Assembly: GCA_020726335.1 (NCBI GenBank)
Contig: DYSU01000017.1
Coordinates: forward strand, 6,720 to 39,578
DNA from: Thiomargarita sp.
GTDB taxonomy: Bacteria > Pseudomonadota > Gammaproteobacteria > Beggiatoales > Beggiatoaceae
Direction: 5' to 3'
Length of the DNA stretch: 32,859 bases
The notes beneath the pieces are model-generated. The model saw nothing but the letters and a program-made list of their open reading frames with translations. It searched no databases and was not told the DNA's origin. Made by a program: the position numbers and the translations under genes. Below, in pieces: positions 8-27,229 of this stretch. Numbering within the stretch: the stretch's first letter is position 1; the number at the start of each line of letters is the position of its first letter.

Positions 8-3000
8 TTAACTTTGTAATTCCCATGCCAACAATTCATCCACATCATCTTCCAGTAAAATTTTACGAAAAACAGGGACACAATAGGCATATTGACCATG
101 TTGAACCCGCTTGAGGACAAAACTTAAGGTCAAGCGCAACAACGCATGTTTTAAATCTTCTGGTGTATAGTTAAAGCCTTTTTTCTCCAAAATGGCCATC
201 ACATCGGCCATGGTGAAGCGGTTTTGTTTGACGGTGGCATAGACAATGATGCGGTCTAAACGGCTGGCATTTTCATCGTTGGTCAACGATTCCCAACCCG
301 CCAACGCATCATAAATCGCATCGCTGGCCAAAGCATGCAATAAATCATTGTTTTCCAATACGCGGCGTTCGTTGCCTAAATTTTTCAACATTTCATTGCA
401 GGCGATGGCAATCAAGTTGGCGCGCCGTCCTGTGGCATAAATCAAGGTATTGAATTGAAAATCACCACGGTATCTGATGTGCAACACGTCCATCGGTTTG
501 GTGATGAGTTCCAAACAGGCTTCTTTTTCCAACGCGCCGATGATCACAGGCTCGCCAAAGTTTTTCAACGGCGACTGGTATTCCAACACTGACGCTTGGT
601 ATAAATTCCAAAAGCCTGCCAACACAAAAAAGCACCGTCCTTCTTCGCTGAGACTGCGAAATTGGTTCAAAGTTTGGTATTGGTGTTCCATTTCGCATTT
701 AATGAACATATCGGCTTCATCAATCAATAACAAATAGCGTTTCTTGTGGCCGTTATAGCGAAAATAATCAAGCAAATCAATCAATTGCCCATCTGTTTTT
801 AAGCCCAACGCAGCGGCCAATTGGCTGTGAATCGTGTCACCGTGCAAAGTGATGTAATGGCATTCGATGTCGGAATGGCCTTGATAACGTCGATGTAAAT
901 GCTTGAGTATGCTGGATTTTCCCAATTGACGGCCACCAACCACCAAATAATTGCTGGGTTCACGGTTGAGAATATGCGCCAATGTTTGGGCGCGGCCAAA
1001 AAACACCGCGTCTTTGTTGACCCCGCTGCGGGTTTGATAGGGCGAAATTTGGGTGATTTTCAATTGTGCTGACAACACTTTGGCAAACGCAGGAATCGGA
1101 TTGGACAACAACAGCCATTGGCTGAGTTCAACACAATCGGGAACGATGAACAAGGTGGTGGAGTCTAAGCCATAAGGGCGCAGTTCTTGTTGTTGCTGTT
1201 TGTGCAGGGAAATGATCACCACTTTTTGCAATGCCACGGTTTCCCATTGGCGCAATTGGCTGATGATGTCTTTGGCAGGTAAATCGGCGACAGGGAAACA
1301 CAACAAACACGATTCCAAATTCAGCGGAAAGTTTTCATGCAAATGCAAAGTGAACAATTGCCCATGATCGGGGGAAACTTCTGACAGCAATAACGGGGCA
1401 ATCGGTTCGCGGCTTTTGTTGCCCAAACGTTGACCCAGCATTTTGGCTTGTTTGGCGGGGCTTTGGCTTAAAAAAGCAATGGCTTCGTCCAGCGTTTTAT
1501 GATGCACTTGGCTGTCGGTTAAAATCGTGGACAAGCGTTGGGTTTTGCGCAAGAGTTGGCGCGCTTGCGGCAGTTGATACAGCGGCAGTTTGAGCAAATG
1601 ATGGGCATCGTTGGACAACAATGTCACCAGCGGATGGCGGTACAAGCGGTAATAATAAATGAAAATCAGCAAAAACAGCCCAAAAATCACGGGAATATAA
1701 TAATATTTGGACATCCCCAAGGTTTCGATTGAATCCACTGACAATTGCCACACATGACTGGGGTAGGATGTTTTGCGAATATGCAGTAAAACTTGTTGAT
1801 AATCATCCAGTTGAAACGAATCATTCAGCACAAAAGAAATCAGTTCAGTTTTGCCCGCAGCCACAGATGGGCGGGTCACCTCGCTGGTCAATGGTTTTTG
1901 TTCACCACTGACAATGTTTTGCAAATAACTTCTGAAAATACTTTGGCTTAAATCCACTTGGCTTTGATTGGTCAAACCGACCCCCAAGACAGGGTTGTTT
2001 TGTTCAGTCAACACCGCTTTGGCTAATTTTAATTGGGGCAGTTGTGCGGTGACTTTAATATCTAAAATAATCGGGTCAGCTTGCGCGCTGTTGATGTGCA
2101 AGCGCAAATTTTGCTGTTCATTTTTGGGGTTAAGGTAATCGGTTTTAATGCTCACATTCAGGTTAAATTGGTATTTTTGTCCCGCTTCCAACACCGCCAA
2201 GGCATCGGGTGCGTGTAATACCAAACGGTTATCGGTGCTGGGAACATGCACCACTTGCGTCCAATACACCCGTTGTTGGCTGACGTTTTTCACCGTAACT
2301 TGTAATGGTGTGAGTTCACCATCGACGACATTGATTTTATTGGCAAAGTCTTCTACGCTCAAACTGCCGGTGCGTTGTAATTCAGGTGGCGTTAGGCGTT
2401 TGGTGCAATAGCCTTTGGTTTTGCTCCAAACGGTGTCGTTGTCAAAGCATAAACATTGTTTTTCCTCACACGATAGCCACCGCCCCGTTTCATCGCCCAA
2501 CAAGACGCGGCGCAACTGACCTGTGGCCACATTCCACAAACGCACGGTGTTATCGCGTGAACCCGAAGCCAAAATACGGCCATCGGGGCTGAAAGTGACA
2601 GCGGTCACAGGTTCTGAATGGCCTTGATAGCGGTCCATTTCATGGCCTGTTGTGACTTGCCATAAAATCACCGCATTGTCGCGTGAACCCGAAGCCAAAA
2701 TATCACCTTGCGGACTGAAGGCCACAGAAAACACGGGGTCGGTTTCTTGTTCCATTTTTTTCAAAATGTGACCTGTGGCCACATCCCATAAAATCACGGT
2801 GTTGTCGCGTGAACCTGAAGCCAACGTTTTGCCATTGGGGCTGAAGGCCACACTGCGGACAAAAGTGGTATGGCCTTGAAAATTCTTGATTTCTTTGCCA
2901 GAAGCTATGTCCCATAAACGCACGTTGCCATCCCATGAACCCGAAGCCATGATTTTGCCATCGGGACTGAAAGCAATGGCCAACACTTGGTTGGTAAAAT

Positions 3001-4432
3001 CGCCCAAAACGGCCAGTTCTTGGCCATCAGAAACCCGCCACAAACGAATGGTGCTGTCGCTGGAACCTGAGGCTAAAATTTGGCCATCAGGGCTAAAAGC
3101 AACGGTAAACACAGGGTCGGTGTGGCCTTCTAAACGGCGCAAAGTCGTGCCTGTGGCCACGTCCCATAGATAAATATTGCGGTCGCTAGAGCCTGAGGCC
3201 AAATATTGACCTTCGGGGCTGAAGGCCACTGCAAACACGCCTTCCGTGTGTTTTTTCATTTTCTTCAGTTCTTTGCCTGTTTTACTGTCCCATAAACGGA
3301 CAGAGCCATCCAAAGAGCCTGTGGCCAACGCATCGCCTTTGGAATTAAAGACCACAGACAACACTTGGTTGGGGCGCGCACCCAAGGTGCGAATAGCATG
3401 GGCGGTGTTGACATCCCACAAGCCAACCGATGTATCGGTTGACCCTGAGGCTAAAACAGTGCCATCGCCATTAAACACCAAGGTTTTGACCACACCATGA
3501 TGGGCTTTGAAGCGTTTCAATACTTTGCTGACAGTGACATCCCAAAACAACAGCGTGCCATCTGCATCGCCTGTGACCAATAAATTGCTTTCAGGGGAAA
3601 ACGCCAGCGAATGCACCACTTTGTTATCGCTTTTCAGCTCGTATTGCTGGTTTTGCAACAATGCCCACAAGCGAATTTGGCCGCTTTCTGAACTGGTGGC
3701 CAATAAATCGCCTTTGGGATTAAAGCGTACTGCTAAAATCGGTGCGTTGTCTTGGTTAAAACAGCGAAACAAAGTCATGTCTTGCAGTTGCAACACGCAC
3801 ACTTTGCCATCTTCCAAACCATAAGCCAAATAACGGCCATCATGGCTGATGTCGATGGTGCTGGTGACATAAGTGGCTTCACCTGTGTGGCTTTTACCGT
3901 CGTAGTGGTTGATGATTTCGCGGGTTTTTAAATCGCGTACCAGCACTTGCCCTTCATAAGTGGCAGAAACCAAGGTTTGATTGTCGGGGGTGATGGCCAA
4001 GGATTTCACAGGGTCATCATCGTGGTCGCTGTTGTCAAGAAAGCGGTCGATTTCTTGGCCTGATTTGACATCCCAAACCCGCACGCTGTTATCGCCCGCG
4101 CTGGAAATCAAGCGTTTGCCCGTGGCATCAAAAGTCAAACTGACCACGGGAAATTCATGGCCATGTAAGCGGCGAATTTCGCGGCCCGTGTAGGTTTCCC
4201 ACAGTCGAATACTGCTGTCGGTATGGCCTGCGGCGAGAATTTTGCCATCAGGGCTGAGGGTGACGATGTTGATTGGATCGCGTTGGCTGATATGATGAAT
4301 CAAGCGTTCTGCATCTTCAAAATCTTTTTTTTCTAATGGGGTTAATAAATCAAAGGGTTGCGCATAACTCAATGCGGTGTAAAATAAAAACAAACACCCT
4401 GTTAGGGTGAATAATGGGTTGGGCTTTGACAT
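8..4432 (-). CDS. Exported 14-blade WD40 / Ig-like / transmembrane / P-loop ATPase protein
   Basis: Encodes 1474 residues from the ATG at 4432, which has an AAGGA ribosome site 5 bases upstream; an in-frame ATG at 4453 lacks one. Residues 1 to about 25 form a signal peptide ending SYA before QPF. Residues 55-640 contain 14 WD40 repeats of about 42 residues, enough for two seven-bladed propellers; the last seven are the most regular (AFSPDG, LASGS, LWDVATG). A Cys-rich linker (SCEEKQCLC, near 657) and Ig-like beta segments (about 690-895) lead to one membrane helix (about 910-930, FGLFLLIFIYYY). The C-terminal part carries FFGRAQ, Walker A GGRQLGKSS (about 1170), Walker B YLLLIDEAD (about 1236) and a likely winged-helix tail, as in STAND/AAA-type ATPases. 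Inferred topology is sensor outside and ATPase inside. Ligand and output are unknown. The hybrid kinase gene upstream is co-directional. Confidence 0.9.
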   Translation of the reverse strand: MSKPNPLFTLTGCLFLFYTALSYAQPFDLLTPLEKKDFEDAERLIHHISQRDPINIVTLSPDGKILAAGHTDSSIRLWETYTGREIRRLHGHEFPVVSLTFDATGKRLISSAGDNSVRVWDVKSGQEIDRFLDNSDHDDDPVKSLAITPDNQTLVSATYEGQVLVRDLKTREIINHYDGKSHTGEATYVTSTIDISHDGRYLAYGLEDGKVCVLQLQDMTLFRCFNQDNAPILAVRFNPKGDLLATSSESGQIRLWALLQNQQYELKSDNKVVHSLAFSPESNLLVTGDADGTLLFWDVTVSKVLKRFKAHHGVVKTLVFNGDGTVLASGSTDTSVGLWDVNTAHAIRTLGARPNQVLSVVFNSKGDALATGSLDGSVRLWDSKTGKELKKMKKHTEGVFAVAFSPEGQYLASGSSDRNIYLWDVATGTTLRRLEGHTDPVFTVAFSPDGQILASGSSDSTIRLWRVSDGQELAVLGDFTNQVLAIAFSPDGKIMASGSWDGNVRLWDIASGKEIKNFQGHTTFVRSVAFSPNGKTLASGSRDNTVILWDVATGHILKKMEQETDPVFSVAFSPQGDILASGSRDNAVILWQVTTGHEMDRYQGHSEPVTAVTFSPDGRILASGSRDNTVRLWNVATGQLRRVLLGDETGRWLSCEEKQCLCFDNDTVWSKTKGYCTKRLTPPELQRTGSLSVEDFANKINVVDGELTPLQVTVKNVSQQRVYWTQVVHVPSTDNRLVLHAPDALAVLEAGQKYQFNLNVSIKTDYLNPKNEQQNLRLHINSAQADPIILDIKVTAQLPQLKLAKAVLTEQNNPVLGVGLTNQSQVDLSQSIFRSYLQNIVSGEQKPLTSEVTRPSVAAGKTELISFVLNDSFQLDDYQQVLLHIRKTSYPSHVWQLSVDSIETLGMSKYYYIPVIFGLFLLIFIYYYRLYRHPLVTLLSNDAHHLLKLPLYQLPQARQLLRKTQRLSTILTDSQVHHKTLDEAIAFLSQSPAKQAKMLGQRLGNKSREPIAPLLLSEVSPDHGQLFTLHLHENFPLNLESCLLCFPVADLPAKDIISQLRQWETVALQKVVIISLHKQQQQELRPYGLDSTTLFIVPDCVELSQWLLLSNPIPAFAKVLSAQLKITQISPYQTRSGVNKDAVFFGRAQTLAHILNREPSNYLVVGGRQLGKSSILKHLHRRYQGHSDIECHYITLHGDTIHSQLAAALGLKTDGQLIDLLDYFRYNGHKKRYLLLIDEADMFIKCEMEHQYQTLNQFRSLSEEGRCFFVLAGFWNLYQASVLEYQSPLKNFGEPVIIGALEKEACLELITKPMDVLHIRYRGDFQFNTLIYATGRRANLIAIACNEMLKNLGNERRVLENNDLLHALASDAIYDALAGWESLTNDENASRLDRIIVYATVKQNRFTMADVMAILEKKGFNYTPEDLKHALLRLTLSFVLKRVQHGQYAYCVPVFRKILLEDDVDELLAWELQS
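2500..4270 (-). repeat. 14 tandem WD40-coding repeats (about 126 bases each)
   Basis: Fourteen in-frame repeats encode the propeller blades. Those at about 2500-3350 are similar at the DNA level: the stretch encoding SGSRDN recurs at about 2550, 2680 and 2805 with few changes. The repeats at 3400-4270 are more diverged. This suggests that one seven-blade block was amplified or homogenised more recently than the other. Confidence 0.85.
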
Positions 4433-4514
4433 GATAATCCTTGCTAAACGCATGGTTTATTGAATAAACCCGCGTGCATTACTGATACTTAAAGAATGTA
4501 CGCCAACCCAACTT

Positions 4515-4608: not shown

Positions 4609-6309
4609 TCAAACAGAGCAGTATAAACCAATCATCCGTGCCAAGGATTCGCGCCGCACGGGTTTGCTGATAAAATCATCCATCCCTGCTTGCAAACAGC
4701 GTTCTTTGTCACTGTTCAATACACTGGCTGTCATGGCAATAATCGCTGAACGGGGTTGATTTTGCTGTAATTGACGAATCGCACGGGTGGCGGCCAAACC
4801 ATCCATTTTTGGCATATGAATGTCCATAAAAATCAAATCATAAAAATGGCGTTCGACTTCAGCAAGGGCTTGCAAACCATTGTCCACGGTTTTAATTTGT
4901 TCAGAAAAATTTTTTAACAGTAAATTCAATACCTTTTGATTTACTTTGTTATCTTCAGCCAATAAAATGCGCGGCATTTTTTTAGTGTTATCCGTTAGTT
5001 GCGCGGGTGTTTGTAGTAATTTTTGTATGCCATTATAAAGTCGCAAGGGTTTAATCGGTTTATTGATGCAAATGATGTGGTCTTGTTGACAAATTTCAGG
5101 GTTATAGCCGAATAAAATTAAATTTTTAACTTGTCGGCATGGGTACAACGGTTCAGGCAAGGCATTGTTTTCAATAAAATCACAAAGACCAATATCCCAT
5201 ACTTGTTGGTTCAACAAACGCAACAGTTCCGTTTTGTCTGTGACCAAAGTCAATTGACCGCCCCATTGTTGAAGACAATGTCGCAACAAATTACGGCTAA
5301 AATTGTCTGGGCTGTAGATTAAAATCTGTTTACCTTGCAATGAGGGCAATGGCGCAGACAACAATTGATAAGGATTGCCAACAGAAGCCAATGCTTTGAT
5401 ATTAAAATGAAAACAACTGCCTTGGCCCAACTGGCTGTCTAACCAAATTTGCCCGCGCATCATTTCAATCAATTGCTTGCTGATTAACAAACCCAAACCC
5501 GAACCACCGTATTGGCGTTGCACCGTGCTGTGAACTTGGCTAAAAGGTTGAAATAACGCATGAATTTTATCTTTCGCAATGCCGATGCCTGTGTCATGGA
5601 TTTTAAACGACAATGTATAATTTTGTTCTTTAATTTCAGACACTTGCACATCCAGCCACACATGGCCTTGGTCGGTGAATTTAATGGCGTTGTTGAGTAA
5701 ATTAACAAAAATTTGCCGCAAACGGGTTCTATCGCCCATGATGAGCGGCGGCACATCATCCGCCATTTGATACCCCAAATTTAAGCCTTTTTGTGCGGCT
5801 TGCGCAGTGATCAAATCCAGCGATTCTTCAATACACAAGCGCAAGTCAAACACATGGGTTTCCAACACCACTTTGTCCGCACCCAAACGCGAATATTCAA
5901 GAATGTCATTGATTAAATTGAGTAAAATTTCTGAACTGCTGCGGATAATTTTCAAATAATCTTGTTGTTCAGGACTCAAAGGCGTATCGGCTAAAATCAC
6001 CGTCATACCCAGCACGCCATTTAACGGGGTGCGAATTTCGTGGCTCATGTGGGTTAAAAAATTGACTTTATTTTTTGCTTCATGCAAAGCGGTTTGTTGT
6101 TGGCTAACTTGTTGTTCTAATTGATGTTGTCGCTGTTTGTAATTGACAATAACTTGTTGCAATTCGTGAATTTGCTTTTGTTTGCTTTGCAAGGAAAAAG
6201 GGCATTGAGTCAGATTTTTTTCTAAAAAAAACAATAAATTGGCCGATAGTTTGTGAATACGCGCATACAAGCTCATAAAAGATGCCTGAATGGGCTTGCC
6301 ATTGTCCAT
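4609..6309 (-). CDS. Soluble hybrid histidine kinase with two receiver-like domains
   Basis: Encodes 566 residues of a two-component hybrid kinase. There is no membrane helix and no recognisable sensor; residues 45-85 are a glutamine-rich coiled coil. The HisKA box follows (FLTHMSHEIRTPLNG, His90), then the HATPase domain with N box NLLNNAIKFTD, DTGIGIA and GGSGLGL. A first receiver-like domain (about 330-435) keeps a central Asp (LCDF) and Lys (NKPIKP) but lacks the usual acidic pair. A complete receiver is C-terminal (about 447-560, LLAEDNKVNQK, phospho-acceptor Asp in FMDIHMPKMDG near 495). The architecture resembles BarA-like or orphan hybrid kinases, so it probably receives its signal from a partner protein. 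No ribosome site is obvious at the ATG at 6309; an ATG at 6276 is an alternative start. Confidence 0.9.
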   Translation of the reverse strand: MDNGKPIQASFMSLYARIHKLSANLLFFLEKNLTQCPFSLQSKQKQIHELQQVIVNYKQRQHQLEQQVSQQQTALHEAKNKVNFLTHMSHEIRTPLNGVLGMTVILADTPLSPEQQDYLKIIRSSSEILLNLINDILEYSRLGADKVVLETHVFDLRLCIEESLDLITAQAAQKGLNLGYQMADDVPPLIMGDRTRLRQIFVNLLNNAIKFTDQGHVWLDVQVSEIKEQNYTLSFKIHDTGIGIAKDKIHALFQPFSQVHSTVQRQYGGSGLGLLISKQLIEMMRGQIWLDSQLGQGSCFHFNIKALASVGNPYQLLSAPLPSLQGKQILIYSPDNFSRNLLRHCLQQWGGQLTLVTDKTELLRLLNQQVWDIGLCDFIENNALPEPLYPCRQVKNLILFGYNPEICQQDHIICINKPIKPLRLYNGIQKLLQTPAQLTDNTKKMPRILLAEDNKVNQKVLNLLLKNFSEQIKTVDNGLQALAEVERHFYDLIFMDIHMPKMDGLAATRAIRQLQQNQPRSAIIAMTASVLNSDKERCLQAGMDDFISKPVRRESLARMIGLYCSV

Positions 6310-20943: not shown

Positions 20944-21963
20944 ATGCGATACGTTTTAAAATTATTGATGGCAATCAGTGTGTTATTTATCCCTACCGCT
21001 TATGGCTTGGATAAATTTATCGATTTTGCCGACACCAGCGCATTACAATTGAATGGCGCAGCCCAAGTTTTGGCCACGACGGATGGCCAAGTGTTGCGGC
21101 TAACCCCCGCAATCATGTCACAATCAGGCAGCGCGTTCAGCAAAGCCATGGTCAATGCGGCGGATTTCAGCACTTTTTTTAAATTCAGAATCACCGAAGC
21201 AGGCGGCTCGTTGTTTGATTGCAATAAAGACGCGGGTGCAGACGGCATTGTGTTTGTGGTGCAATCGGTCAGCTCCAGCATCGGCGGCGGTGGTGAAGGC
21301 ATTGGCTATAAAGGCATTGGGCAAAGTGTTGGGGTTGAGTTTGATACATGGTGCAATGAAGCCAACCATGACCCCAGTTCCAACCATGTGGCGATTGACC
21401 TCAACGGCGTGGTTGACCACGGCGAAGGTTCGCCTGTCGCGGCCAATGTCGCAGGTCGCTTTGATGACGGCGATGTTTGGTATGCGTGGATTGACTACAA
21501 AGACCGCACCTTAGAAATTCGTGTCAGCCCAAATTTGCAACGCCCTGTTCACGCTACGCTCAGCAATGTGTTGGATATTCCTCAAATTTTAGGTGTAAAC
21601 GATGCTTATGTTGGCTTCACTTCAGGCACGGGCTTGGATTATGGTCATCATGACATCTTGGCTTGGGAATACCGTGATCACTTTGCCCCTGTTGCAGGCG
21701 AATGCAGTGAAGAAATTTTAGCCCAAGTGCGCGAAGAAACCCGCGCCGCTTGTCGTGCAGACCCTGCCTCTTGTGATATTGAAGTCGCAGGCCAAGCCGT
21801 CACCTTAAGCCAAGATTTAAAATTACACATTCCATTGGTGTTATATGATATTGGTTTTGGCATCACCTTGCCCTTGTCAGCAGATTTGTCGTTTGTGCCA
21901 CAAGGCAATAATACCTTCTGGTTCCGCTTGGATGATTTCAAAATATTGGCTACGCCCAAATAA
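20944..21963 (+). CDS. Secreted L-type (legume-like) lectin-domain protein
   Basis: Encodes 339 residues. A signal peptide (cleavage near TAYG before LDKF) is followed by a lectin fold region (about 25-235): DFADTSALQLNGAAQVL, ADGIVFVVQ, VGVEFDTWCN, NHVAIDLNG, YAWIDYKDRTLEIRVS and AYVGFTSGTG are the usual L-type lectin landmarks, including the acidic residues that bind Ca. A second, unassigned C-terminal region contains ECSEEILAQV and CRADPASCDIEV, a CxxDPASC motif seen in proteins of sulfur-oxidising gammaproteobacteria as I recall. The product is probably periplasmic or extracellular and binds carbohydrate. AGGAGA lies 7 bases before the ATG, and a terminator follows at once, so it is a single-gene unit. 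Confidence 0.85.
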   Translation: MRYVLKLLMAISVLFIPTAYGLDKFIDFADTSALQLNGAAQVLATTDGQVLRLTPAIMSQSGSAFSKAMVNAADFSTFFKFRITEAGGSLFDCNKDAGADGIVFVVQSVSSSIGGGGEGIGYKGIGQSVGVEFDTWCNEANHDPSSNHVAIDLNGVVDHGEGSPVAANVAGRFDDGDVWYAWIDYKDRTLEIRVSPNLQRPVHATLSNVLDIPQILGVNDAYVGFTSGTGLDYGHHDILAWEYRDHFAPVAGECSEEILAQVREETRAACRADPASCDIEVAGQAVTLSQDLKLHIPLVLYDIGFGITLPLSADLSFVPQGNNTFWFRLDDFKILATPK

Positions 21964-26857: not shown

Positions 26858-27229
26858 TTACAATGATATAACTGGGTTGATGACATTGAAGTTTTCAATC
26901 CAGTCAAAATCTTTAGTATTGGCAGTGACCAATGTATATTTATGAATTAATGCAGTTGCACCAATTAAGGCATCGCCTAAAGACATTTTACGTTGTTGAC
27001 GTAATTGAATTGCCTGTTCAATAATTGTGTCAGACAATGGTAATATTGGGAAACTATTAAAAAACAGTTCCAATTTTTGTTGTTTATCCCTGGTTAATTG
27101 ATGATAACCTAAAACTTCAATTTTACTGATTATAGAAATAATGGGTAGCTGCTGCTGTGCCAAAAAAGACCGCACCATATCATATTCAGGCTCTGTCGCA
27201 TAAATAATAATATTACTGTCTAATAACAT
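26858..27229 (-). CDS. PIN-domain toxin, VapC-like
   Basis: Encodes 123 residues of the PIN RNase fold. The acidic catalytic residues are present: Asp4 (LLDSNIIIYA), Glu38 (ISKIEVLGY), Asp86 (SLGDALIGATAL) and Asp107 (TANTKDFDW). VapC toxins cleave tRNA or rRNA until neutralised by a VapB-type antitoxin; the small gene 3 bases upstream fits that role. The pair lies inside the ABC exporter operon, 19 bases before the permease start. The protein looks intact and likely active. Base use is more AT-rich than the flanking ABC genes, consistent with acquisition. Confidence 0.88.
   Translation of the reverse strand: MLLDSNIIIYATEPEYDMVRSFLAQQQLPIISIISKIEVLGYHQLTRDKQQKLELFFNSFPILPLSDTIIEQAIQLRQQRKMSLGDALIGATALIHKYTLVTANTKDFDWIENFNVINPVISL

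Follow-up and report, generated by a model that had tools for sequence, protein, structure and literature searches.

Anatomy and relatives of a Thiomargarita WD40-sensor ATPase with a predicted membrane-spanning arrangement and a candidate TIR-bearing partner

In this study, we report the computational analysis of a gene, here called B, that lies at one end of a 32,859-nucleotide stretch of the Thiomargarita sp. genome (assembly GCA_020726335.1, contig DYSU01000017.1, positions 6,720 to 39,578; the whole stretch is referred to as the window). The product of B carries two WD40 propellers, one transmembrane (TM) helix and a P-loop ATPase, and its relatives in other genomes are nearly always paired with a second gene, A, whose product combines a variable N-terminus with an NTPase-like domain lacking the Walker A motif. 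The architecture of B, the spread of its family, the recurrence of A and the function that the pair may have are described below.

Architecture and predicted topology of gene B

Gene B is a single uninterrupted open reading frame (ORF) with an ATG at 4453 (Table 1), and the likelier start codon is M8 at 4432, which the initial annotation had given as the end coordinate of the gene. The signal peptide, the 14 WD40 repeats and the single membrane helix claimed there were all recovered by sequence inspection, Pfam, motif scan and hydropathy. Cleavage of the signal peptide, read by eye, was placed between MSKPNPLFTLTGCLFLFYTALSYA and Q. The Pfam WD40 profile matched 13 stretches (E 1.2e-126), and a motif scan counted 14 blades at a spacing of about 42 residues, giving two seven-bladed propellers. 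The Cys-rich linker of the initial annotation is real, the pattern W-x-S/N-C-x4-9-C being found again after the final blade in most WD40-type relatives. The following region, previously called Ig-like, does look beta-rich by eye but gave no significant Pfam match (best fn3_6, E 0.05). A scan for promoters and terminators gave a result no better than that from shuffled sequence.

Table 1. Coordinates of gene B and its parts in the window
Feature	Position	Strand	Basis
Whole gene B (propeller ectodomain, TM helix, ATPase)	8..4453	minus	1,481-amino-acid ORF; homologues with the same core
Predicted signal peptide, residues 8-31 (SYA, then Q)	4361..4432	minus	Sequence, hydropathy; signal-like N-termini in relatives
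14 WD40 blades, two propellers, residues about 58-652	2498..4282	minus	Pfam WD40, blade motifs
Cys-rich hairpin WLSCEEKQCLCF...C following the final blade, residues 660-683	2405..2476	minus	Cys pair kept in most WD40-type relatives
Beta-rich linker, CARDB/Ig-like in look, residues 690-912	1718..2386	minus	By eye; common to WD40-type relatives
TM helix, residues 917-937	1643..1705	minus	Hydropathy (one strongly hydrophobic helix); helix in AlphaFold model
Helical juxtamembrane part and Rossmann-like subdomain, residues 938-1135	1049..1642	minus	Kept in family (alignment A1); model
P-loop ATPase (AAA_22/ATPase_2/Orc-like)	272..1045	minus	Pfam, alignment A1, model, Foldseek
Walker A, GGRQLGKSS, residues 1173-1181	911..937	minus	G281, K282 and S284 invariant in alignment A1
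Walker B, LLLIDEAD, residues 1241-1248	710..733	minus	Alignment A1
C-terminal winged-helix-like domain	11..271	minus	Helix/strand order in model; conserved in A1

Pfam searches with the C-terminal portion of B (about 540 residues) returned AAA_22 (E 1.3e-9) and TniB (1.5e-8), both above cut-off; the curated cut-off of nSTAND1 was not reached (E 1.4e-5, 25.4 bits vs 27.1 required). The ATPase sequence alone found no match in the PDB, and its profile matched only DnaA (E 0.004). An AlphaFold model of the last 584 residues, built from the alignment of the B family (A1), scored a predicted local distance difference test (pLDDT) value of 88.1 and a predicted template modelling (pTM) value of 0.82, and displayed the P-loop fold that the initial annotation had expected from the two Walker motifs, both of which are present. 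Foldseek ranked the archaeal ATPase_2 proteins 2qen and 2fna best, followed by Orc/Cdc6, and because of this ranking the model identifies the B C-terminus as a predicted P-loop ATPase of STAND/ATPase_2/Orc type that ends in a winged-helix-like part. An invariant GK[ST], a Walker B of the LIDEAD type and the winged helix were found, as is usual for members of the P-loop class.

The propellers are assigned to the space beyond the inner membrane, and the ATPase to the cytosol, because of the signal peptide, the single TM helix, an excess of lysine and arginine on the C-terminal flank of that helix (186 vs 108 on the other side, summed over 77 proteins), the recurrent Cys pair, and the lipobox (lipoprotein signal) that one relative, L049, carries; this sequence-based case for the topology is strong but not formal. 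The initial annotation had likewise set the WD40 part outside the cytoplasm, and the signal peptide, the single TM helix and the Arg-rich C-terminal flank uphold it. Many bacterial WD40-STAND proteins are cytoplasmic, and B could in principle be an ordinary WD40-NTPase whose hydrophobic segments have been misread. We regard this as very improbable, since the features just listed speak against it, as do the other ectodomain types of the family (NHL and Reg_prop/Y_Y_Y, see below), which are typical of the periplasm and other extracytoplasmic sites and agree with an outside placement.

A family with exchangeable ectodomains and a recurrent partner

Scanning genome contigs with the single B protein gave no matches; scanning with the B alignment did. 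Strong matches to the B core were present in 24 of the 43 genomes of the order, with up to 5-7 copies per genome, as in some genomes of Ca. Parabeggiatoa, and in just 3 of 369 genomes sampled evenly across the class, the Thiomargarita genome itself being one of the three. Among the named matches of the contig scan are Ca. Parabeggiatoa, Thiomargarita, Thioploca, Chromatiaceae (Chromatiales), Acidovorax, Delftia, Hydrogenophaga, Pseudomonas, Stenotrophomonas, Lysobacter (Xanthomonadaceae), Undibacterium and Aminicenantes. A search of plasmids yielded weak, partial matches at most.

The conserved unit of the family is the TM segment with the ATPase module, and the ectodomain is interchangeable. 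It may be a WD40 domain whose Cys pair and linker match those of the window gene, an NHL propeller (L083, Pfam NHL 1.5e-31), a Reg_prop plus Y_Y_Y domain (L090, Reg_prop 1.9e-48), or, in a branch of Acidovorax, Pseudomonas and Xanthomonadaceae, a short domain flanked by two TM helices; in some B proteins (L035, L042, L046) the ectodomain is slight or missing altogether. Parsimony on a quick B tree with automatic labels counted seven ectodomain changes. The description of B as a WD40-STAND protein in reversed order was therefore dropped, WD40 being one of several ectodomains that can be swapped on the TM-ATPase core.

The short two-TM ectodomain keeps a W-P and a C..G.P....P..C pattern at L102, L106, L112, L131 and other loci of its branch, which recalls the C-termini of type IV pilins; a pilin-like identity was considered for it and rejected, as the Pfam Pilin match (E 0.08-0.18) found no support in a PDB profile search. 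A conserved coiled-coil-type ORF lies on the opposite strand between the partner gene and the ectodomain-less B at L035:5881-7032, L042:6970-8457 and L046:7160-8287, and may supply the piece that B lacks there.

Neighbouring genes were analysed at the best 80 of 141 B loci, a set that includes close relatives, so that the loci are not independent. Clustering revealed one recurrent family adjoining B (cluster 1), which was then profiled as the partner, A. A profile search located A immediately upstream of B, in the same orientation, in 68 of the 80 loci; of the remaining 12, 11 have less than 2.7 kb of DNA upstream, leaving L077 as the one real exception. Among the order's 43 genomes, 20 had both B and A, 4 had B alone, 2 had A alone and 17 had neither (Fisher p 2e-6), at thresholds of E 1e-40 and 1e-20 of our own choosing. 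No full-length family in NCBIfam matched, and a search of open-access papers found no description of the A-B pair.

The C-terminal domain of A aligned with the B ATPase when their profiles were compared with hhalign (A1-A2; E 1.3e-4, though with a probability of 54%), and RSLSE and L-N motifs are common to both alignments; on this comparison it is judged to be an NTPase-like domain paralogous to the B ATPase. Walker A (GK[ST]) is kept in 24 of 24 aligned B proteins and in 0 of 28 aligned A proteins. The AlphaFold model of A (pLDDT 89.6) found the plant TIR-NLR RPP1 as its best structural match, followed by Apaf-1, CED-4, Avs4 and Avs5 among others, and its C-terminus, like that of B, is winged-helix-like in look.

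The N-terminus of A varies. It is a TIR domain (TIR_2 up to 1.7e-26), an XRE-type helix-turn-helix (HTH), for which Pfam matches are weak and the pattern is clear by eye, or, in one lineage, a pair of TM segments; HTH, not TIR, is the commonest form in the fetched loci. A putative catalytic Glu (W-x3-4-E region) is present in most TIR partners; judged by this motif, the Glu is apparently replaced in L072 and L080. In the Parabeggiatoa TIR partner at L072:1774-3996, a long tandem repeat, SPPKPAQLE, separates the TIR domain from a hydrophobic helix at the N-terminus, an arrangement that suggests a membrane tether. At loci with the TM version of the partner (L055:11926-12978; also L094 and L089/L051), a YhcG/DUF1016 PDDEXK nuclease gene (YhcG_C 1.6e-66) stands between the partner and the sensor-ATPase genes.

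The pairing bears on the possibility that B acts alone, as a receptor or as an ATP-driven envelope machine that, for example, moves or assembles surface proteins on its propeller scaffold, with the partner merely regulating its expression or activity. B does hold the sole intact Walker motifs, WD40, NHL and Reg_prop often serve as scaffolds, and the high copy number in some Parabeggiatoa genomes would suit such a machine. This explanation is nevertheless improbable in our estimation: the partner is a paralogue of the B ATPase and nearly always adjoins it, the domains it bears are of effector type, and the ectodomain is scant or absent in L035, L042 and L046.

The Thiomargarita genome studied here has exactly one B and one A. 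No A was found in the window or in the 6.7 kb before it, because the two genes are not linked in this genome. The A gene lies on another contig (C7; L185:9269-10687) and encodes 472 amino acids, comprising a TIR domain (TIR_2 E 1.7e-26, 93.5 bits vs a cut-off of 28), in which the putative catalytic Glu is present (GWVREEYE), and a pseudo-ATPase. Its closest relatives are the linked TIR-bearing partners at L072 and L073 of Ca. Parabeggiatoa (about 52% identity), and the closest relatives of the window B are the B proteins of these same pairs (53% and 51% identity); the A and B trees concur with these shared closest relatives.

A gene for a soluble-looking hybrid histidine kinase with a receiver domain lies 155 bp upstream of B on the same strand (window 4609-6309, minus). 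It was considered as the partner of B and dropped, because it does not recur at homologous loci and the real partner is on the other contig.

Proposed mechanism and competing explanations

On balance we lean towards the view that B supplies the sensor and ATPase of a STAND-type signalling system that consists of two proteins and spans the membrane, acting with the TIR partner A and through cleavage of nicotinamide adenine dinucleotide (NAD+). In such a system the propellers would bind or monitor something beyond the inner membrane, such as a phage or cell contact, damage to the cell surface or an envelope protein, and this putative ligand would act across the TM helix to alter the nucleotide state of the ATPase ring. 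NLR, Apaf-1 and ORC rings assemble via their NTPase domains, and B and A might then co-assemble via their homologous domains in the same manner. The resulting A-B complex would cluster the TIR domains, whose putative NADase activity, or production of a signal nucleotide, could lead to dormancy or suicide. Partners with an HTH or TM segments would draw a transcriptional or membrane response from the same core.

Several observations weigh against this proposal. We infer the interaction of A with B from the adjacency of their genes, their joint occurrence across genomes and their homology. In the Thiomargarita genome A and B are not linked, and over all pairs the similarity of A and that of B to the Thiomargarita proteins are uncorrelated (Spearman 0.10, p 0.44), agreement being confined to the closest relatives. 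Conserved defence neighbours were not seen at the loci outside the Thiomargarita genome. PADLOC-DB contained no full-length system match for B or A, the matches being confined to a TIR segment, a WD40 segment and a Walker A segment (mad8). In the wider set the majority of partners have an HTH rather than a TIR domain, and the ancestral role may therefore have been transcriptional, not suicidal.

A regulatory role is the main rival, given that HTH outnumbers the other N-termini among the fetched partners: B would sense the state of the envelope or surface and free or activate a DNA-binding A, and the minority TIR would serve as a scaffold or signal maker instead of a suicide enzyme. The HTH pairs of Undibacterium, Pseudomonas and Pseudoxanthomonas are flanked by ordinary genes, without a defence island, and the winged-helix-like C-termini of both proteins are consistent with such a role. 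The TIR domain in the Thiomargarita genome and in the nearest relatives, and the TM segments that occupy the same slot in one lineage, speak against it; so does the swapping of effectors on a single NTPase core, which is typical of conflict systems (PMC7159879, PMC8195603). We consider the regulatory explanation possible but unlikely.

The proposed two-protein TIR system could, more specifically, be a receptor-type immune system, in which an exported propeller sensor is joined to an ATPase that nucleates a hetero-ring with the TIR pseudo-ATPase, an outside trigger leads to NAD+ depletion, and sensor and effector modules are both exchangeable. We put this forward tentatively, with less than even confidence. 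If true, it would be an outside-in counterpart of cytosolic TIR-NLR/Avs defence. The outside-in signalling NTPase of the initial annotation is a reasonable, yet still interpretive, description, and it overlooked the second protein with which the core is predicted to work.

Other genes around B were also noted. About 3-6.5 kb past the B end, outside the window (L031:161-3858, G000:C54), there are a toxin-antitoxin-type pair of a nucleotidyltransferase (Polbeta 1e-16) and a HepT-like protein (2.3e-26) and a type I restriction HsdR gene; two metabolic-type genes lie between B and these defence-type genes. Within the window, positions 20944-21963 (plus) encode a protein with a signal peptide and a lectin domain of the legume type (Lectin_legB 4.4e-26), unusual for a bacterium, and positions 26858-27229 (minus) a PIN-domain (VapC-like) ORF (1.3e-12) flanked by ABC transporter genes.

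Relation to known systems

The bacterial NLR-like systems known to us sense intruders within the cell. Here the sensor is predicted to lie outside the membrane, and the TIR effector belongs to another protein, one whose NTPase is dead; different lineages carry different modules in each of the two slots. It thus becomes testable whether a STAND-type switch can be fired across a membrane, and whether a bacterial TIR response can follow envelope events. The family is found mainly in filamentous or giant sulfur bacteria, and its cultured members in Acidovorax, Delftia and Pseudomonas are open to such tests.

Judged by published description, the closest kind of system is the two-gene nSTAND2 counter-invader system, in which an active and an eroded STAND-type NTPase, with a variable effector on the eroded one, are proposed to form a hetero-ring (Kaur et al. 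2021, PMC8195603, Fig. 6C). An adjoining gene pair with active and eroded modules and the effector on the eroded one is likewise seen in the relatives of B, the Thiomargarita genes being unlinked. The nSTAND2 effectors are mostly GT4 or HEPN, whereas TIR, HTH or TM segments occur here, and neither a TM helix nor an exported propeller on the active partner figures in the section describing them (PMC8195603). The ternary vWA-MoxR iSTAND systems share an effector-bearing inactive STAND, with an N-terminal TIR or other effectors, and part of them are placed near the membrane (Kaur et al. 2020, PMC7159879). They differ in comprising three genes with MoxR and vWA, and an exported propeller on the active member does not figure in the portion of that paper describing them (PMC7159879). 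A MoxR/vWA pair was absent from the most recurrent neighbour clusters of B, though not every neighbour was searched for these two genes.

TIR-NLR receptors (plant RPP1; bacterial TIR-STAND and Avs) share with A the TIR domain and an NB-ARC-like fold, RPP1 being its best match; they have sensor and TIR-NTPase in one cytoplasmic chain with an active P-loop, whereas two proteins and an exported sensor are found here. Apaf-1 and bacterial WD40-STAND proteins also couple a WD40 double propeller to a STAND-like ATPase. The latter are usually cytoplasmic, with the NTPase followed by WD40; in B the WD40 part is N-terminal, after the signal peptide and before the TM helix, so that the order is reversed and a membrane lies between, and the effector has a protein of its own. 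Hybrid two-component sensors with Reg_prop/Y_Y_Y have the same sequence of periplasmic propeller, TM helix and cytosolic output, and L090 carries Reg_prop/Y_Y_Y too; their output is a histidine kinase, unlike the P-loop ATPase of B. By analogy, the A-B pair looks like plant and animal immune receptors in that it may act as an outside-in alarm or signalling system. We file it as a STAND-type two-component conflict/signalling system, set apart by its transmembrane, outside-facing sensor.
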